Of a stretch of DNA of 64,000 nt, positions 6,526 through 41,537 are shown piece by piece. The notes beneath the pieces are model-generated. The model saw only the letters and a program-made list of their open reading frames with translations, was not told the origin of the DNA and ran no database searches. Within the stretch, counting starts at the first letter, position 1. Every line of letters starts with the position of its first letter. This DNA comes from Pseudarthrobacter oxydans. GTDB lineage: Bacteria; Actinomycetota; Actinomycetes; Actinomycetales; Micrococcaceae. The stretch is from contig NZ_CP139438.1 in NCBI RefSeq assembly GCF_034258515.1, positions 2,294,001-2,358,000 of the forward strand, read 5' to 3'. A program made the position numbers and the translations under genes.

Positions 6526-8403
<1,878 letters not shown>

Positions 8404-8409
8404 CTTTTG

Positions 8410-8415
8410 AGGGTA
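8410..8415 (-). promoter_or_regulatory. -10 hexamer TACCCT of the leuA leader transcript
   Basis: TACCCT precedes the leader GTG by exactly 6 nt, predicting transcription initiation at the start codon. No good -35 match is visible. Confidence 0.5.
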
Positions 8416-8517
8416 ACACGCGTGCGTAAGATGAAAGGGCACTACCGTCCGTAAAGTCCACCATGCAGACGCCGCCGGGTATTCGACCGGGCGCGGCCCT
8501 TCATCAAAGGAGTTTCA

Positions 8518-31700: not shown

Positions 31701-34235
31701 CTAGGCCGGGACGATGTTGACCAGTTTAGGTGCGCGGACAATCACCGTGCGGATGCCGCGGCCGTCCAGTGCCCGCTGGACATTCTCCGACGCAAGCGCC
31801 AGTTCGCGCAGCTGGTCCTCGGAGACGTTCGGGGACACTTCCAGCCTGTCCCGGACCTTGCCCTGGACCTGGACCACTGCCGTGACGGTGTCCTGGACCA
31901 GCAGGGAGGCGTCATGGGCCGGCCATCCCGCATTCGCGACGGAGGCCGGGTGGCCCAGGACGTTCCACATGTCCTCAGCCGTATACGGCGCGAACAGGCT
32001 CAGGATCACCGCGACGGCCTCAGCGGCCTCGCGCACAGCGGGGTCGGCGCCGCCGGCACCGGAGGCTGCGTCTATGGTCTTGCGGGTGGCGTTGACCAGC
32101 TCCATCAGTTTGGCCACCACTACGTTGAACTTGTTGGCGTCCAGCAGCGCGGCGGCGTCGGCGATGGTCCGGTGCGTAACGGAGCGCAGTGCGCGGTCGC
32201 CGCTGGTGACGTCGATGCCGGGTTCGCTCGCCACATCCTGGGCCAGGCGCCACGCCCGCGCCAGGAACTTGGCGGAACCGGAGGGCGAAACGTCAGCCCA
32301 GTCCACGTCGTCCTCGGGCGGGGAGGCGAAGATCATGGTCAGGCGGACGGCATCCACGCCGTATTTGTCCAGCTGCTCGCCGAGGTCCACACCGTTGCCG
32401 AGGGACTTGCTCATGGCTTTGCCGCCGTTGAGCACCTGCCCCTGGTTGAGCAGGGCGCTGAACGGCTCGTCGGCGTCGATCATGCCGAGGTCGTGGATGA
32501 CCTTGGTGAAGAACCGGGCGTACAGCAGGTGCAGGATCGCGTGCTCAACGCCGCCAACGTACTGGCCCACCGGCATCCAGTCGTTGATTTTCTCCGGGTC
32601 GAAGGGCCCCTCCGTGTAGTGCGGCGAAACGAAGCGCAGGAAGTACCACGACGAGTCCACGAAGGTGTCCATGGTGTCGGTATCCCGCTTGGCCGGGCCG
32701 TGGCAGGAAGGGCAATCCACGTTGACCCACGCTTCGGCAGCAGCCAGCGGAGAGGTGCCCTTGGGCGACAGGTCTTCACCGCGCAAATCGGACGGCAGCG
32801 TGACGGGCAGCTGCTCGTCGGGGACAGGAACCTCGCCGCAGGACGGGCAGTGGATGATCGGGATCGGGGTGCCCCAGAACCGCTGGCGGCTGAGCAGCCA
32901 GTCCCGCAGGCGGAAGTTCACGAACTTCTCACCGGTGCCCTGGCGTTCCAGCATGGCGATCGCGGCCGGGATGGCCTCCGCCTTGGGCAGGCCATCCAGC
33001 CCGCCCGAGTTGATCAGGGTGCCCTCGCCCGTGGTGGCCGTGCCGGAAACGGCAGGATCCTCCTCGCCCGTGTCCAGGACTGCCCGGACAGGCAGGTCGA
33101 AGGTGCGGGCGAAGTCCAGGTCGCGCTGGTCGTGGGCCGGCACGGCCATGATCGCGCCGGTGCCGTAGTCGGCCAGGACGTAGTCAGCGGCCCAGACGGG
33201 AAGCTTCTCCCCGTTGAGCGGGTTGACGGCGTACCGGCCGGTGAAGACGCCGGTCTTCTCCCGCTCAGTGGACTGGCGTTCAATCTCGGAGAGCGCCTTG
33301 ACCTGCTCGCGGTATTCGTCCAGGGCCGCGGCGTGCTCCCCGGTGACGAGTTCGACGGCGAGCGGCGCGTCCGCGGCCACCACAAAGAACGTCGCGCCGT
33401 ACAGGGTGTCGGGGCGGGTGGTGAAGACAGTCACCTCCTTGGCGGGCTTGCCGCCGTCGGCCTCGATCACGAAGTTGACGTGGGCGCCCTCGGAGCGGCC
33501 AATCCAGTTCTTCTGCATGGCCAGGACGCGCTCGGGCCAGTGGCCGCGGAGCTGCTCCATGTCGTCAAGCAGCCTGTCGGCGTATTCGGTGATCTTGAAG
33601 TACCACTGGTTGAGGGACTTCTTGGTGACGGTGGTGCCGCAGCGCTCGCAGGCACCGTTGACTACCTGTTCGTTGGCCAGCACCGTTTGGTCCTTGGGGC
33701 ACCAGTTGACCGGGGAGTCCTTGCGGTATGCCAGCCCGCGCTCGTAGAAACGCTTGAACAGCCACTGGGTCCAGCGGTAGTACTCGGGATCCGAGGTATG
33801 CAGCCGGCGCGACCAGTCGGCCGAGATGGCGTACCGCTTAAAGGACGCGGCCTGGGTGTCGATGTTGGCGTAGGTCCACTCGCTGGGGTGGGCGTTGCGC
33901 TTGATGGCAGCGTTTTCCGCCGGAAGGCCAAAGGAGTCCCAGCCGATCGGGTGGAGGACGTCGAATCCTTTCTGGCGCAGATAGCGGGCCACCACGTCAC
34001 CCATGGCGAACGCCTCCGCATGGCCCATGTGGAGGTCGCCCGAAGGGTACGGGAACATATCCAGCACGTAGCGCCGCTCCCGGGACCCGTCGTCGACAGG
34101 GGTGAAGACCTTGAGGTCTTCCCACACCTGCGGCCATTTGGCCTCCATCGCCGTGAAGCTGTAGGTGCCCTCCTCGGGCACCTCCGCTGACACTGTTGCT
34201 GCTGTTCCGGTCTCTGTCTCCGGCTGAACGCCCAC
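31701..34235 (-). CDS. leuS: leucyl-tRNA synthetase
   Basis: Class I synthetase charging tRNA-Leu. 844 residues from the GTG at 34235, chosen because AGAGGG lies 5 nt upstream and homology starts soon after; the open frame is longer but crosses the leader region. The HIGH-type motif is HMGH (69-72) in [13 protein letters not shown]. An editing (CP1) domain with a [12 protein letters not shown] segment is inserted, and the KMSKS-type loop is [11 protein letters not shown], followed by anticodon-binding and C-terminal domains. A leader peptide with LLL and an intrinsic terminator lie between the promoter and this gene, predicting attenuation by leucine or charged tRNA-Leu. Confidence 0.97.
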
Positions 34236-34320
34236 TGCTGCCCTCTTCTGTTCTGTTACGGCATCTGTGCTGCCATAACGGCCTGATCCTCCTGCTGTCA
34301 CCGGACGCTCCCGGACACAC

Positions 34321-34345
34321 AAAAGCCCCTCACCATGGAGGGGCT
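34321..34345 (-). terminator. intrinsic terminator (attenuator) upstream of leuS
   Basis: On the minus strand AGCCCCTC, a 6-nt loop and GAGGGGCT form a perfect 8-bp stem followed by TTTTGTGTGT. It lies 8 nt after the stop of the leader ORF and about 85 nt before the leuS start, so leuS expression requires read-through. Confidence 0.82.
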
Positions 34346-34353
34346 GCCGCACG

Positions 34354-34407
34354 CTATCCGTTGGTCCGGATACCGGGCGGCTGGCTAAGCAGAAGGATCG
34401 CACGCAT
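34354..34407 (-). CDS. leuS leader peptide
   Basis: A 17-codon ORF encoding [17 protein letters not shown], with an Ile-Leu-Leu-Leu run (ATC CTT CTG CTT) early in the peptide. The ATG is exactly 6 nt from a TAAAGT hexamer, so it is probably the first codon of a leaderless mRNA. The second half encodes a TATCCG/CGGATA hairpin that can extend through GCCGC/GCGGC, immediately before the terminator. Position, Leu codons and terminator together make this a candidate attenuation leader. It is too short to verify by homology. Confidence 0.68.
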
Positions 34408-34413
34408 GAAACC

Positions 34414-34419
34414 ACTTTA
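34414..34419 (-). promoter_or_regulatory. -10 hexamer TAAAGT of the leuS leader transcript
   Basis: TAAAGT is separated from the leader ATG by exactly 6 nt, the same arrangement as in front of leuA. Confidence 0.55.
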
Positions 34420-34487
34420 GCGCACCCGGGAAGGAACACCGCCGGGGGCCTGCCGGGAATGACGGCCTCCGTCAGGACCCCGAGGGT

Positions 34488-34586
34488 ACGAGTCCCCCTA
34501 CTGGAACGGCCCGCAGGATTACGTGTCCCCCTACTGCCGCAACCCGCAAAACCACGTGCCCTCCCCTACCCCCTACAGCTGCGAAC
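34488..34586. repeat. three imperfect 33-bp tandem repeats
   Basis: Units begin at 34488, 34521 and 34554, period exactly 33. The best conserved part is ACGWGTCCCCCTACTG in units 1 and 2; unit 3 begins ACGTGCCCTCCCCTACC. The remaining half shares a CCGCA core. The array sits between the divergent leuS leader and the RND operon and encodes nothing evident. Confidence 0.72.
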
Positions 34587-34604
34587 TTGTGTGCTTTCCC
34601 CCCT

Positions 34605-34666
34605 TGCCAACAGTGGCAGGGCAGGTGCATTGTAATGACCAAGTCTGAGGGGGAAACTGACTGGTC
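34605..34666. promoter_or_regulatory. inverted repeats upstream of the RND operon
   Basis: Two inverted repeats: TGCCA-acag-TGGCA (34605-34618) and GACCAAGTC...GACTGGTC (34637-34645 and 34659-34666, one extra base in the left arm). They could be operator sites for the efflux genes, 110-170 nt upstream of the first start codon. No regulator gene is adjacent, so this is only suggestive. Confidence 0.35.
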
Positions 34667-34775
34667 TCCGGCGTAGGAGCCTGAAATGTATTCATGCCAG
34701 TTACACCCGCAGCAAAGTAGCCGCGGGTCTTACCCTTCGTCTAACCCCGGCCGAGAATCCAACGGGTGACGAACC

Positions 34776-37700
34776 ATGTTTGGCTGGGTTACCCGGTTCA
34801 GCATGCAGTTTCGGATTCTGGTTCTCGCGATCGCAGCGGGCCTTATTACTTTTGGCGTAGTAAACATTCCACATATGGCTGTGGACACCATGCCGGAGTT
34901 CGCCCCCGCACAAGTCGAGATCCAGACCGAAGCCCTCGGGCTTTCCGCCGCTGAGGTCGAACAGCTCATCACCGCCCCCATGGAGGCGGACCTTCTTAAT
35001 GGCGTGGCCTGGCTGGACGAGATACGCTCCAAGTCCGTTCCCGGCCTGTCGTCCATCGAACTCGTCTTCGAGCCCGGTACGGACGTCCTGCGTGCACGCC
35101 AGCTGGTGGCGGAAAGGATGACGCAGGCCCACGCGCTGCCCAACGTCTCCTCGCCGCCCCTGATCATGCAGCCGATGTCGTCCACGAGCCGCGTGATGAT
35201 GATCAAGATGAACTCCACCGAGCTCTCGGGCATCGACATGTCCGTCCTGGCCCGGTGGAAGATCAAGCCGCGCCTGATAGGCATCCCGGGCGTCGCAAAC
35301 GTGTCTATCTGGGGCCAGCGCGAACAGCAGCTGCAAGTTGAAGTCACTCCCACGCAGCTCCGCGACAAGGGCATAACCCTTGAGCAGCTGGTCAAGACCA
35401 CGGGCAACGCCGTCTGGGTTTCGCCGCTGAGCTTCCTGGAGGCATCCACGCCGGGTACCGGCGGCTTCGTGGAGTCACCCAACCAGCGCCTTGGCATCCA
35501 GCACGTCCTCCCTATCCGCACCCCGGCCGACCTGGCAAAGGTCAGCGTGGAGGAAGCGGACCCGCCGGTGCTCCTGGGCGACATCGCCCAGGTCAAGGAA
35601 GGCCACCAGCCGCTGATCGGGGACGCCGTGGCCGGCTCAGGTGCAGGCCTGATGCTGGTCGTCGAAAAGTTCCCGGGCACCAACACACTGGAAGTCACCC
35701 GCAACGTTGAAGCCGCGCTGAAGGACATGGAGCCGGGCCTCACCGGGATCCAGATCGACACGTCCGTCTTCCGGCCGGCAACCGGCGTCCAGGAATCCGT
35801 CGACAGCCTGGGCCTCTCCCTGCTCATCAGCCTGCTGATTGCCGTAGCCCTGTTCTGGCTGCTTTTCCGCTCCTGGCGTGCGGCTGTGATTGCGCTCGTG
35901 GCCATCGCCACGACGGTCACGACGGCCGCAGTTGTGCTGTTCGCCCAGAATGCAACACTCAACATCGCCATCCTGCTCGGGGTTCTGCTCGGCACATCGG
36001 TAATCGTGGGCGACATTGTGGAAGACATCCAGGCCCACCGGCGGCTGGCCTCGGGCCAGGATGTGGCGAAGCCGGGAACTTCCCCAAGGTCGAGGATCAG
36101 CCTCATCGCGAAGGGAATCCGCACTCCGCTGTTCCACGCATCGCTCATCATGGTGGTTGTCCTCGTTCCCACGCTCTTTCTGACCGGGGTCGGCGGCTCG
36201 TTCTTCACCCCGCTGTTCTGGTCACTTGCGCTGACCCTTGCCGCCGCACTGATAGTTGGCCTCTCCGTGACGCCCGTGCTGGCGTACTTCCTGCTTCCGC
36301 CGAAGACTGCTCCGGCCAGGGAACTTCCCGCTGTAGGACGCGCGAAGGCCTACTACGGCCGCGCGCTGGACGGAATCGGTCCCCGGAAAGGCCTTGCCGT
36401 CGCGGTGGTGGTGGTTGTGGGAATGCTGGGGATCGTAGCCGGTTCCCAGCTGACGCAAAACAGGCAACTTGTTCCCACGATGCCTGACCGCACGCTTTTG
36501 GTTCAGTGGGACACCATGGCCGGGACCTCCAACGATGAAGTCCAGCGGGTTGCCGCCAAGGCCGCCGAGGAACTTCGGGCCCTTCCGGGGGTCTCCGGAG
36601 TCGGCGGGCACCTGGGACGCGCCATTTCAGCAGACCAGGTGGTAGGCAACAGCTCCGCCGAGCTGTGGGTGTCGATCGACCGGGGCGCCAACTTCGGCGA
36701 AACCGAGCGTGCCGTGCGGGAAGTGGTCCAGGGTTACCCTGGCATCGCGCACAACGTGATGAACTACTCGCAGCAAACCATCGGAGATGTACGCTCCAGC
36801 ATGGAACCGGACTTTGCGGTCCGGGTCTTTGGAACGGAAATGCCGGTGCTGCGTAAAAAGGCAGAAGAGGTCCGCCAGGCCCTCCAAAAGATCAACGGGG
36901 TGAACAACCCGACCATCGACGCACCGGCCGTGACCCCGATAGTGGAGGTCCAGGTCAACCTCGAAGCCGCCCAAAAGGCAGGTATCAAGCCCGGTGACGC
37001 AAGGCGCGCCGCTGCGACCCTGATGCAGGGCATCGTGGTTGGGAACCTCTTTGAACAGCAGAAGGTTTTCGAAGTGGTTATCCGGGGGGCCGTTGGCGTC
37101 CGGGATGACCTGACAAGCATCCGTGAGCTGCTCCTTGACACCCCCAACGGCGGCCACATCCAACTGGGGCAGATCGCCGACGTGCGGATGGTCCCGAGTG
37201 AAGTCGTGGTCCAGCACGATGCTACGTCGCGGCGCATCGACATTGTCGCCGACATCAGCGGACGCCCCTTGGAAGATATTCAGCGGGACATCCAGGCAGC
37301 CGTCCAGCAAATCGAGTTCCCGCTCGAGTACCACGCCGAGATCCCCACGAAATATGGCGAACTCCAGGCCGCGGATACCTTGGTGCACGGACTCGGAGTT
37401 GCTGCCGCCCTGGCTGTGCTGCTCCTGCTCCAGACAGCGGTGAGGAGCTGGAAACTGGCTGTCGCCACCTTCCTGGCCCTTCCCGCCGCGATGTCCGGAG
37501 CAGCGGTGGCGGCCTGGTTCGGATCGGCGTCGCTGTCCTGGCTGTCACTGACAGCGTTTGCTGCCGTCCTTGCCATCGCCGCGCGCAACGCAGCCCTGTT
37601 GTCCGCACGCGTCGACGAGATCTGGCGGGAGACTGCCGGAGCTTCGCGCACAGACGTGGTCCTGCAGGCAGCCCGGGACCGCGTGTCGCCAGTCCTGAAG

Positions 37701-37949
37701 TCGGCCATCATCACGCTGCTTGTGCTGATACCGCCCGCCTTCATGGGCGGCACGGTCGGCCAAGCCTTGATAGGGCCGATGCTGCTGATCCTGGCCGGTG
37801 GCCTGGTGACCACAACGCTCGTGGGGCTCTTCATCCTCCCGCTGCTCACCCTGTGGTTCGGTCCACGCACCGAGCCCGAAGAGTGGTCGGAAGTCTACGA
37901 ATCAGAACATCCAGTCATGTCGATGCCGGAAAAGGTGAAAGTATCATGA
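34776..37949 (+). CDS. RND-family efflux permease, CzcA/CusA-like (copy 1, divergent)
   Basis: A 1057-residue proton-driven RND permease of the heavy-metal-efflux-like type. TM1 is at about 13-33; a porter domain with PEFAPAQVEIQTEALGLSAAEVEQL follows; TM2-6 at about 350-510, a second porter domain, and TM8-12 at about 870-1030. In TM4 the usual VDD pair reads VGD (VIVGDIVEDI), so only the second Asp remains, and the usual EN two turns on reads ED. TM10 has AARN. It is the first gene of a four-gene run and overlaps the adaptor start as ATGA. RND pumps normally span two membranes in Gram-negative bacteria, so its role in an actinobacterium is open. Confidence 0.9.
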   Translation: MFGWVTRFSMQFRILVLAIAAGLITFGVVNIPHMAVDTMPEFAPAQVEIQTEALGLSAAEVEQLITAPMEADLLNGVAWLDEIRSKSVPGLSSIELVFEPGTDVLRARQLVAERMTQAHALPNVSSPPLIMQPMSSTSRVMMIKMNSTELSGIDMSVLARWKIKPRLIGIPGVANVSIWGQREQQLQVEVTPTQLRDKGITLEQLVKTTGNAVWVSPLSFLEASTPGTGGFVESPNQRLGIQHVLPIRTPADLAKVSVEEADPPVLLGDIAQVKEGHQPLIGDAVAGSGAGLMLVVEKFPGTNTLEVTRNVEAALKDMEPGLTGIQIDTSVFRPATGVQESVDSLGLSLLISLLIAVALFWLLFRSWRAAVIALVAIATTVTTAAVVLFAQNATLNIAILLGVLLGTSVIVGDIVEDIQAHRRLASGQDVAKPGTSPRSRISLIAKGIRTPLFHASLIMVVVLVPTLFLTGVGGSFFTPLFWSLALTLAAALIVGLSVTPVLAYFLLPPKTAPARELPAVGRAKAYYGRALDGIGPRKGLAVAVVVVVGMLGIVAGSQLTQNRQLVPTMPDRTLLVQWDTMAGTSNDEVQRVAAKAAEELRALPGVSGVGGHLGRAISADQVVGNSSAELWVSIDRGANFGETERAVREVVQGYPGIAHNVMNYSQQTIGDVRSSMEPDFAVRVFGTEMPVLRKKAEEVRQALQKINGVNNPTIDAPAVTPIVEVQVNLEAAQKAGIKPGDARRAAATLMQGIVVGNLFEQQKVFEVVIRGAVGVRDDLTSIRELLLDTPNGGHIQLGQIADVRMVPSEVVVQHDATSRRIDIVADISGRPLEDIQRDIQAAVQQIEFPLEYHAEIPTKYGELQAADTLVHGLGVAAALAVLLLLQTAVRSWKLAVATFLALPAAMSGAAVAAWFGSASLSWLSLTAFAAVLAIAARNAALLSARVDEIWRETAGASRTDVVLQAARDRVSPVLKSAIITLLVLIPPAFMGGTVGQALIGPMLLILAGGLVTTTLVGLFILPLLTLWFGPRTEPEEWSEVYESEHPVMSMPEKVKVS

Positions 37950-38396: not shown

Positions 38397-41300
38397 ATGC
38401 GCCGGATAGTCGCCGCCAGCCTCCGCTTCAGATCCATCGTCATCGCGTTGGCGGCGGCTCTGATGATGGTTGGCGGCGCCCAGCTCAGCAACGCCTCAGT
38501 GGATGTCTTCCCTGAATTCGCGCCGCCAAAAGTCGAGGTCCAGACAGCATGCCTTGGCCTAACGGCCGCGGAGGTTGAAGAACTGGTATCGGTTCCCATG
38601 GAGGAGGCCTTCAACGGCATAGACGGCCTCGACCACATGCGCTCCAAGTCAGTCCCGCAGTTGTCCTCGATCGTCATGGAATTCGAGAACGGCACGGATC
38701 TGCTGACTGCACGCCAGCTGGTATCCGAACGGATGGCGACAGTCATTCCCACCCTGCCCACCTGGGCAGCCCCGCCGGTGATGCTGCAACCGCTGTCCTC
38801 CACCAGCCGGGTGATGAAGATCGGCCTGTCCTCCGACACGCGGTCCCTGATCGAGATGTCCATGATCTCCTACTGGAACATCAGGGCCCATCTGCTCCGC
38901 GTTCCGGGTGTGGCGAACGTGGCAATCTGGGGCGAACGCCTCCAGATGCTGCAGGTCCAGGCGGATCCCGCCAGGCTGGCGACCCACAAGGTCAGCCTGG
39001 AAACAGTGATGAATTCTACGGCCAATGCGCTGGATGCCGGGCTCCTCCATTACTCCTCGGGTGCCATGATCGGCACCGGCGGATCCCTGGACACGCCCAG
39101 CCAATCCATCGGAATCCGCCACGTCCAGCCCATCACCACCCCGGAAGACCTCGCCCAGGTGGCGCTGGAGGACCGGGAGGGGCAGCCACCACTGAAGCTG
39201 GGCGACGTGGCAAATGTCGTGGAGGACCACCAGCAGCTTATTGGTGACGCAGTGATCAACGGCGGCCCGGGCCTGATGCTGATCGTGGAGAAACTGCCGT
39301 GGGGAAACACCCTTGAAGTCACCCGGGGCGTTGAAGAGGCAATGAAGCAACTCGAACCCGGCCTGACCGGAATTGCCGTGGACACCACGATTTTCCGGCC
39401 GGCAACATTCATCGAGGAATCCCTCAATAACCTGGGCGTCGCCCTTCTCCTTGGCTGCCTGCTTGTCATCATGGTGTTGAGTGTCTTCCTCTTCCAGTGG
39501 CGGACGGCGCTGGTCAGCGTGCTGGCCATCCCCTTGTCGCTGGTGGCGGCTGCCCTTGTGCTCTATTGGACCGGCGGCACAGTCAACACCATGGTGCTTG
39601 CGGGGCTGGTGATTGCGGTCGGGGTGGTGGTGGACGATGCCATCATCGACGTCGAAAACATCGTCAGGCGCCTTCGGCACCACCGGGCAACCGGGGGCAC
39701 GGGAAGCACCGCGAGGGTTGTGGTCAACGCGTCCCTGGAGGTCCGGGGACCCATCGTTTATGCCACACTGATCATCGTCGCGGCCACGGTTCCGATCTTC
39801 TTCCTGGACGGGCTGACGGGGGCCTTCTTCCGGCCGCTGGCCACGGCCTACACGTTGGCAGTGTTCGCGTCGATGCTCGTGGCCCTTACGGTGACCCCCG
39901 CGTTGGCATACATCTTCCTCCGGAACGCCAAGCTGGAGGACAGGGATCCGCCCGTGGTCAGGGTCCTCAAGCGCTGGTACAGCAAGGCCCTCCGGCCCAT
40001 CGTCCGGCGGCCAATTCCCGGTTACCTCGCCTTGGCCGCCTTCGGCATGGTGGGCATAGTGGCGGCACCGTTGCTGGGCCAATCCCTGCTCCCTTCCTTC
40101 AAGGAACGCGATTTCCTCATGCACTGGCTTACCAAACCAGGTACGTCCAACGCCGAAGAAGTCCGGGTCAGCCAGCTGGCCTGCAAGGAACTCATGACCA
40201 TCCAGGGCGTGAACAACTGCGGATCCCACACCGGCCAGGCCTTCAACGCTGATGAAGTGGTGGGTGTCTACTTTGGTGAGAACTGGATCAGCGTAGACCC
40301 GGGCGTGGACTACGATTCCACGCTGAAGTCGGTCGAGTCTGTAGTGGCCGGCTACCCCGGTATCCAAAGGGACGTGCAGACCTACCTCAAGGAACGCATC
40401 CGTGAGGTGCTGACGGGGACCGGCTATGCCGTCGTCGTCCGCGTCTACGGCGACGACCTTTCGATACTTCGCCAGGAAGCCGACAAGATCAAGGAGATCC
40501 TCGGCGGCATTGACGGGGCCATCGGTGCCAAGGTCGCGCTCCAGTCCAACATTCCGCAGATTGATGTGGAGGTGAACCTGGACGCAGCGAACCGCTACGG
40601 ACTGAAGCCGGGCGATGTGCGCCGGGCGGCGGCCACCATGGTGGCCGGCGAAGAGGTCGGCGACATCTACCGTGACGGCAAAGCCTACGACGTCCAGGTC
40701 TGGAGCCCGCCGGAGGTCCGGACGAGCGTCACAAGCATAGAGAACCTCGTGCTGGATACGCCGTCCGGGCAGAAGATCCGGTTGGCTGACGTGGCGGCCG
40801 TTTCGGTCAAGCCGACACCCAACGTCGTTGAACGTTCCGAAGGGTCAAGGCGCATCGATGTCAGCGCCAACGTCAAGGAAGGCGACCTGGCCAAGGTGGT
40901 GGAGAAGCTGCAGGACGGCATGAAATCAGTCCAGTTCCCGGTCGGCTACAGCGCCGTTGTCCTCGGCGAATACGCGGAACGGCAGGCCGCATCGCAGCGC
41001 CTGATGCTCTACTCCATCGTCGCACTCATCGTTGTCTACCTTCTCCTGCAGGCTGCTTTCAGGAGCTGGCGGCTTGCCACCCTGGCCATCCTGACCCTCC
41101 CGGTGGCGCTTGTGGGCGGGGTGATCGCTGCGCACCTCAGCGGCGGAATCCTGTCCCTGGGTTCCCTGGTCGGCTTCCTGACGCTGATGGGGATCGCGGC
41201 ACGCAACGGCATCCTGCTCATCAACCACTGCCAGCACCTTGAACAGTTCGAAGGCGTCCCCTTCGGACCGGAGCTGGTGCTTCGGGGGGCTGCAGAGCGG

Positions 41301-41537
41301 TTGTCGCCGATCCTGATGACCACGCTGGCCACCGCGCTGGCCCTGGTGCCGCTCGTTGTCATGGGCAACATCCCGGGCCACGAGATCGAGCATCCGATGG
41401 CGGTGGTGATCCTGGGCGGGCTCGTCACGTCGACGTTGGTCAACCTGTTCATCGTCCCCTCGCTGTACCTCCGCTTCGCCAAGGGCGGCCGCGGTCGGCG
41501 CAGCACCCCCGAACTGCAGCCGGCCCCTGCGGTGTAG
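38397..41537 (+). CDS. RND-family efflux permease, CzcA/CusA-like (copy 2, canonical)
   Basis: A 1046-residue RND permease homologous to the first. It opens MRRIVAASLRFRSIVIALAA with TM1, then DVFPEFAPPKVEVQT. TM4 carries the canonical proton-relay motif VVVDDAIIDVENIVRR, and TM10 reads GIAARNGILLINH. The porter domains contain PGVANVAIWGERLQML and PSFKERDFLMHWLTKPGTSN. The C-terminus is a short hydrophilic tail after IVPSLYLRF. Together with copy 1 it could form a mixed trimer, as MdtB-MdtC does; that is inference. Substrate unknown; similarity to metal-type RND pumps is only general. The start ATG is 1 nt after the adaptor stop. Confidence 0.92.
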   Translation: MRRIVAASLRFRSIVIALAAALMMVGGAQLSNASVDVFPEFAPPKVEVQTACLGLTAAEVEELVSVPMEEAFNGIDGLDHMRSKSVPQLSSIVMEFENGTDLLTARQLVSERMATVIPTLPTWAAPPVMLQPLSSTSRVMKIGLSSDTRSLIEMSMISYWNIRAHLLRVPGVANVAIWGERLQMLQVQADPARLATHKVSLETVMNSTANALDAGLLHYSSGAMIGTGGSLDTPSQSIGIRHVQPITTPEDLAQVALEDREGQPPLKLGDVANVVEDHQQLIGDAVINGGPGLMLIVEKLPWGNTLEVTRGVEEAMKQLEPGLTGIAVDTTIFRPATFIEESLNNLGVALLLGCLLVIMVLSVFLFQWRTALVSVLAIPLSLVAAALVLYWTGGTVNTMVLAGLVIAVGVVVDDAIIDVENIVRRLRHHRATGGTGSTARVVVNASLEVRGPIVYATLIIVAATVPIFFLDGLTGAFFRPLATAYTLAVFASMLVALTVTPALAYIFLRNAKLEDRDPPVVRVLKRWYSKALRPIVRRPIPGYLALAAFGMVGIVAAPLLGQSLLPSFKERDFLMHWLTKPGTSNAEEVRVSQLACKELMTIQGVNNCGSHTGQAFNADEVVGVYFGENWISVDPGVDYDSTLKSVESVVAGYPGIQRDVQTYLKERIREVLTGTGYAVVVRVYGDDLSILRQEADKIKEILGGIDGAIGAKVALQSNIPQIDVEVNLDAANRYGLKPGDVRRAAATMVAGEEVGDIYRDGKAYDVQVWSPPEVRTSVTSIENLVLDTPSGQKIRLADVAAVSVKPTPNVVERSEGSRRIDVSANVKEGDLAKVVEKLQDGMKSVQFPVGYSAVVLGEYAERQAASQRLMLYSIVALIVVYLLLQAAFRSWRLATLAILTLPVALVGGVIAAHLSGGILSLGSLVGFLTLMGIAARNGILLINHCQHLEQFEGVPFGPELVLRGAAERLSPILMTTLATALALVPLVVMGNIPGHEIEHPMAVVILGGLVTSTLVNLFIVPSLYLRFAKGGRGRRSTPELQPAPAV

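Follow-up and report, generated by a model that had tools for sequence, protein, structure and literature searches.

The leuS leader of the window

The window is the whole stretch of 64,000 nucleotides from Pseudarthrobacter oxydans that was analysed here, and unless stated otherwise all coordinates are window positions. Its reverse strand carries leuS, the gene for leucyl-tRNA synthetase, behind a short leader ORF, a predicted hairpin (A) and a terminator hairpin (T). The features are as follows.

34414..34419 (-), -10 element TAAAGT, with the start codon 6 nt downstream
34354..34407 (-), leader ORF as found in the window, 17 codons plus the stop codon TAG (34356-34354)
34384-34407 (-), the usual 8-codon part of the leader ORF, MRAILLLS
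34387..34389 (-), the last Leu codon, CUU, near-invariant and the putative sensing codon
34381..34383 (-), CAG, in place of the stop codon TAG found in 23 of 25 same-genus genomes
34346..34381 (-), hairpin A, with base arms GCCGC (34377-34381) and GCGGC (34346-34350)
34324..34345 (-), hairpin T, the terminator, with 8 bp and a U run behind it
34334..34335 (-), U-G within the T loop, a pause-like signature with the U 11 nt past the end of A
31701..34235 (-), leuS, with a GTG start at 34235 behind AGAAGAGGG

The leuS product matches TIGR00396 with 971.9 bits, a score that includes neighbours in frame. A sequence-only reading of this DNA had described an ORF that starts 6 nt after TAAAGT, has ATC CTT CTG CTT early, encodes a hairpin in its second half and stops 8 nt before a perfect 8-bp terminator followed by leuS, and the sequence together with a terminator scan bears this anatomy out. 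The ATG of the leader ORF is at 34407 (-), ATC CTT CTG CTT are codons 4-7, and the terminator stem AGCCCCTC-CATGGT-GAGGGGCT (34345-34324, -), which lies 8 nt past the leader stop, is the same stem that the scan returned. The hairpin in the second half of the ORF appears as a predicted fold (34381-34346), hairpin A, which ends directly at T. The fold of 34318-34414 was better than those of 200 of 200 dinucleotide shuffles (z -3.4). Because the start codon begins 6 nt after the -10 element, the leuS leader transcript is probably leaderless. About 90 nt separate the end of T from the start of leuS, and the element stops short of the leuS ribosome site. Between the terminator and leuS the window also has a six-codon ORF, MAAQMP, behind GCAGGAGG (34256-34276, -); a pattern search matched it at 8 of the 25 same-genus loci, and some of the others have close variants.

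The leader and terminator T were found in all 25 same-genus genomes searched, own genome included, with the peptide MRAILLLS or a close variant. Codon 9 is TAG in 23 of these genomes, which gives a peptide of 8 codons, and CAG only in the window and in L012. The 17-codon ORF of the earlier reading is thus present in the window but of unusual length, and judged from the same-genus genomes it is a derived extension of a peptide that usually has 8 codons. Leader DNA over codons 1-8 is nearly constant in 24 of the 25 genomes, the changes being synonymous (CGT/CGC, CTT/CTC and AGC/AGT) apart from one R2H and one S8T; the peptide of L020, from the same genus, is MRAVLLLS. The absence of a T-box, also stated earlier, was confirmed with Rfam for window positions 33500-35000 at E up to 1, where the only match was a human lncRNA family far below threshold. 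In 13 loci that carry a leuS, leuA, ilvB or cimA leader, no Rfam family reached the thresholds set by its curators.

Reading frame, hairpins and occurrence across actinobacteria

To describe the leader beyond the genus, we assembled 88 distinct leaders (67 by pattern, 9 by eye, 13 by model match and 2 by hand, less 3 exact duplicates). The pattern for the 67 demanded a Leu-X-Leu run and, close to the start, TAnnnT, and did not demand CTT. Because it required both of these, TAnnnT and the Leu run are not independent evidence in those 67 leaders; TAnnnT stands at the -10 place in 41 of 41 aligned leaders, 35 of which came from the pattern requiring it. For a test of the frame, we searched for CTT-N5-G[CT]C[GA]C with the frame left free, together with an upstream -10 element and a start codon, and CTT was in frame with the start, with no intervening stop, in 61 of 61 distinct leaders. 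The last Leu codon is CTT in 84 of the 88 distinct leaders and CTC in the other four, three of which have CTT directly before it. The check on conservation of frame and Leu codons that had been suggested for this leader thus came out in its favour. The upstream Leu codons vary among leaders (LQL, LPL, LEL, RLL), and one leader, MASQQQRLIGPR, has a lone CUU leucine. Stalling at the stop codon was rejected as the sensor, as the position of the stop varies and that of CUU much less. On the sequence comparison, leucine sensing at CUU is well supported.

In enteric bacteria, rare leucine codons are important in the leu leader. At 47 of the loci studied here, CTT accounts for 2.4% of the Leu codons of the LeuS gene (75/3097), and in the leuS of the window it accounts for 4 of 68. 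It is not rare everywhere, since two other genes of the window have it at 38 of 253 Leu codons, more than in leuS. These two are large ORFs divergent from leuS (34776-37949 and 38397-41537, +), which we take to resemble RND-type efflux transporters.

Exactly two hairpins follow the last Leu codon in the predicted folds of 77 of the 88 distinct leaders, and the 11 without such a fold were excluded from the spacing, control and pause counts. Hairpin A begins 4-5 nt past the last Leu codon in 72 of the 77 two-hairpin folds, and the gap from A to T is 0-2 nt in all 77, with no overlap of A with T. The five-pair base of A is its least variable part. The front edge of a ribosome lies about 10 nt beyond the A-site codon; given this and the gap of 4-5 nt, a CUU-stalled ribosome would cover exactly GCCGC, the 5' arm of the A base. 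Both helices show compensatory change in the 41 aligned leaders, with 44 cells of two-sided change (shuffles, 12.8) and a covariation score that reaches 0.247 (shuffles, 0.113); these counts include related sequences, and the shuffle control keeps the relatedness in. Four of five pairing measures were above 500 of 500 shuffles for these leaders, relatedness still included, and the fifth, further pair types, was not above shuffles (16 versus 14.7, with 110 of 500 reaching 16). A T-G step with its T 10-12 nt after A was found in 60 of the 77 leaders, whereas shuffled loops gave a mean of 20 (sd 3.7, maximum 31, 500 shuffles). In the trp and his leaders of E. coli, a hairpin-dependent pause occurs at a U-G about 11 nt downstream, and by analogy the T-G step in the loop of T resembles these pauses.

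Named leuS loci were taken from a search of one genome per species (best 80 of 582), and 77 of those 80 had upstream sequence long enough. Among these best-ranked loci, the leader is present at 50 of the 77 (41 by pattern and 9 by eye), in Arthrobacter relatives, Actinomadura, Nonomuraea, Planobispora, Nocardioides, Microlunatus and others. By pattern and eye, none was recognised at the remaining 27, including Kocuria, Rothia, Yaniella, Thermobifida and Nocardiopsis. Two Glutamicibacter leuS loci (L054 and L055) seemingly keep the hairpins, as judged by eye, and have a short ORF MKPQ with no Leu or MNSQHNLA with a single CTA Leu; decay of the switch is a possible explanation of such sequences.

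A covariance model was built from 41 leuS leaders, none of which has the published peptide MRAVRLLLSEPR. It gave one strong match (E 3e-20) and six weak ones in the own genome, and matched 25 of 296 phylum genomes at E up to 0.01 and, with E up to 1e-4, 134 of 296 genomes of the class. At 40 of 40 checked loci (16 phylum matches with E<1e-7 and 24 class loci) a leuS motif lay downstream on the same strand. The weak extra matches precede ilvB, leuA and cimA. The model found the window element and seven distinct leaders that encode MRAVRLLLSEPR at E below 1e-13, all before leuS, and on this sequence match the window element is homologous to the Streptomyces leuS element.

The layout recurs before another gene. 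At the 30 best loci fetched (L189-L218), cimA, the gene for citramalate synthase, is preceded by an Ile-rich short peptide with the same arrangement of A and terminator, and further cimA leaders of this layout were seen at L170, L171, L174, L177, L179 and L185-L188. A second model (R2), built from ten cimA leaders, had matches with E up to 1e-4 in 190 of 296 genomes of the class, and the 160 genomes beyond those of the 30 loci include leuS matches. A cimA motif was present at 30 of the 30 best R2 loci fetched, and two fragments from such loci had TIGR00977 (citramalate synthase) as their best family, with scores under the whole-protein cut-off of that family. At these 30 loci the last Ile/Leu/Val codon, as read by a script, is ATT in 22, ATC in 3 and another codon in 4, with one unreadable; in 16 of the 30, a gap of 5 nt precedes A. 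The T-G pause signature is not obvious by eye in the terminator loops before cimA and may therefore be particular to leuS. By its codons and layout, the cimA leader is likely an isoleucine attenuator, which suggests isoleucine control of citramalate synthase; a literature search of limited depth found no description of it. The own genome also has a leuA leader, MRAELLLLSCRGEASDAI (by eye; L116, window 8312-8417, -), with four Leu codons and a CTTAGCTGCCGC stretch that resembles the leuS leader. Outside the window, at C1:2732341-2732460 (L115), it has an ilvB leader that contains Val and Leu codons and in which a hairpin abuts a terminator; the leuS model matches this leader weakly (25.3 bits).

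A candidate mechanism and its alternatives

Leucine-responsive attenuation of leuS, which the earlier reading had proposed, is the best-supported reading, as the frame and the Leu codons are conserved; how A alters termination is a part that we infer. That the leader is a leucine-responsive leader-peptide attenuator of leuS at all is highly probable from the comparative evidence. In the mechanism that we propose, a ribosome would load at once on the leaderless leader and would have to decode CUU, while hairpin A would form behind the polymerase and may hold it at the U-G pause in the loop of T. When Leu-tRNA is ample, the ribosome would clear the leader, A would re-form beside T and transcription would stop. 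When charged tRNA-Leu is scarce, the ribosome would park with CUU in its A site and cover GCCGC; with A blocked in this way, T would be less effective and leuS would be transcribed. The state of A would be passed to T by adjacency, possibly through coaxial stacking and perhaps aided by pausing. The leuS element would thus probably raise leucyl-tRNA synthetase when leucine is short. Translation of the leader, stalling at CUU, pausing and the help of A to T by adjacency are all steps that we infer, and the whole chain of ribosome-mediated attenuation, with A aiding T by adjacency, has in our estimate an even chance of being correct.

The earlier reading had also named no antiterminator overlapping the stem of T, and this was fair: in equilibrium folding, none clearly exceeded the controls in the 77 two-hairpin leaders. 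For this reason A may act on T by adjacency, and if it is true that A controls T by adjacency alone, attenuation is possible without an antiterminator. The same folds bear on a classical attenuator with a true antiterminator, in which the 3' arm of A would pair with the 5' arm of T, or A would extend outward over the boundary nucleotides of T, an arrangement put forward for the ilvBNC leader of C. glutamicum. The Streptomyces leuS elements are called classical, with an antiterminator, in the cited passages of PMC1262725, and those of PMC11857589 describe mutations in C. glutamicum ilvBNC that support an overlap by a boundary trinucleotide. On the other side, the pairing of the A 3' arm with the T 5' arm was rejected, since, with the A 5' arm masked and the T 3' arm absent, sequestration of the T 5' arm was below that with permuted A stems in all four settings (0.288 versus 0.309, p 0.16, in one; p 0.008 to 0.001 in the other three). 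Outward extension of A into T was slightly above its control (0.172 versus 0.131, p 0.01), but this candidate was also rejected, as the excess was small and mostly from Arthrobacter relatives; the extension value exceeded 0.25 in only 21 of the 77 leaders, 17 of which are such relatives. An equilibrium switch was likewise rejected: the mean probability of T was 0.98 under all ribosome masks and without them, with a lowest single value of 0.50. Given these controls and the probability of T, the C. glutamicum boundary-overlap scheme is at most weakly supported for leuS, and we consider a true antiterminator unlikely here.

Equilibrium folding reveals no switch, since T is predicted for all states of the ribosome. 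Where the leader is short, A would be covered by a ribosome at the stop codon as well, and dwell time would then be the only difference between the states. If a leader has three Leu codons, the first stall would take place two codons upstream and leave A free, which would count against the mechanism. The 27 named loci with no recognised leader and the higher share of CTT in the two other window genes count against it too, and the leader counts include related sequences. The folding of T in all ribosome states would also suit a translated leader whose terminator lowers leuS by a fixed amount regardless of leucine, or regulation based on Rho or on stability, and the cited literature passages contain no leucine response of leuS. 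However, a near-invariant CUU at a constant distance from A, and Ile codons at the same place before cimA, would make little sense without codon sensing, and we regard such a fixed reduction as improbable. Translational or protein-mediated control like that of the leuA LEU element, with the peptide incidental, would find some support in the CTTAGCTGCCGC stretch of the leuA leader and in the low score that the leuS model gives this leader (18.7 bits, E 0.22), but the leuS element ends in an intrinsic-type terminator well before the leuS start, and this kind of control seems very improbable to us. A chance ORF beside an ordinary terminator has a negligible probability, for although short ORFs are common, the conservation, frame and covariation tests speak against it.

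Beyond leuS, we tentatively suggest, as a view that is rather more doubtful than the mechanism for leuS itself, that an antiterminator-free, codon-programmable attenuator chassis could be common to actinobacteria. It would consist of a leaderless peptide, one U-ending sensing codon (CUU before leuS, mostly AUU before cimA), about 5 nt, a hairpin with a five-pair base sized to the stalled ribosome and an abutting terminator. The ribosome would allow or deny the neighbouring hairpin with no swap of pairing, and a change of the codon would let another amino acid be sensed.

Relation to known leaders

The trp and his leaders of E. coli sense codons, and their antiterminator excludes the terminator. 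The leuS leader is like them in its putative codon sensing and U-G pause and differs in their antiterminator: codons that match the amino acid are present in the leader ORF, as in a classical trp-type attenuator, and in the equilibrium models no antiterminator that excludes T was found.

As described in the passages of PMC11857589 that we cite, the antiterminator and the terminator of the C. glutamicum ilvBNC leader overlap by a trinucleotide, whereas A and T are separate in the 77 two-hairpin leuS folds. That leader and the ilvB-II motif (cited part of PMC10272879) resemble the leuS leader in having a branched-chain amino acid peptide and hairpins adjoining the terminator. In the C. glutamicum leader, moreover, the peptide begins at or next to the transcript start and CUU is among the control codons (PMC11857589, same passages). 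The ilvB1 attenuator of M. tuberculosis, as far as the cited part of PMC13236596 describes it, also has a branched-chain amino acid uORF and an intrinsic terminator, with mutually exclusive hairpins proposed; it differs in its regulatory codon, drawn as GUA, in the gene and in an antiterminator exclusive with the terminator. The leuA LEU element of the cited passages of PMC1262725 shares a Leu-codon leader, and the own genome has CTTAGC followed by GC-rich sequence; the LEU element differs in a pseudoknot reaching the leuA ribosome site, a place to which no structure of the leuS element extends in its own gene. No typical terminator is given for the leuA leader in the cited part of PMC8079986, and the leuA leader of the window is apparently the published LEU element. 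In S. coelicolor, codon mutations of the ilvB leader were without effect and the leuA results did not fit classical attenuation (cited passages of PMC1262725); by analogy, these results count against a codon-sensing mechanism.

The closest known systems are before leuS itself. The sequence-only reading knew of no described attenuator of this kind, which is contradicted by the cited passages of two papers: a 2005 study predicted classical attenuators before leuS in S. avermitilis and S. coelicolor (PMC1262725), and leuL2 before leuS in S. lividans TK24 was described in 2021 as leaderless, with a hairpin, a U run and the peptide MRAVRLLLSEPR (PMC8079986). The Streptomyces leaders and the window element share a Leu-rich peptide, probably leaderless in the window, and a terminator upstream of leuS, and in these passages the former are presented either as classical with an antiterminator (PMC1262725) or as a hairpin with a U run (PMC8079986). 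The window element is thus a member of the already reported Streptomyces-type leuS switch in another lineage. What goes beyond the published leuS accounts, in the parts cited, is the near-invariant CUU, the fixed spacings and the occurrence outside Streptomyces. A synthetase attenuator predicted in Streptomyces is thereby extended to many other Actinomycetes, with a testable geometry of one codon, one hairpin base and two spacings by which leucine charging could be sensed in actinobacteria without a T-box.
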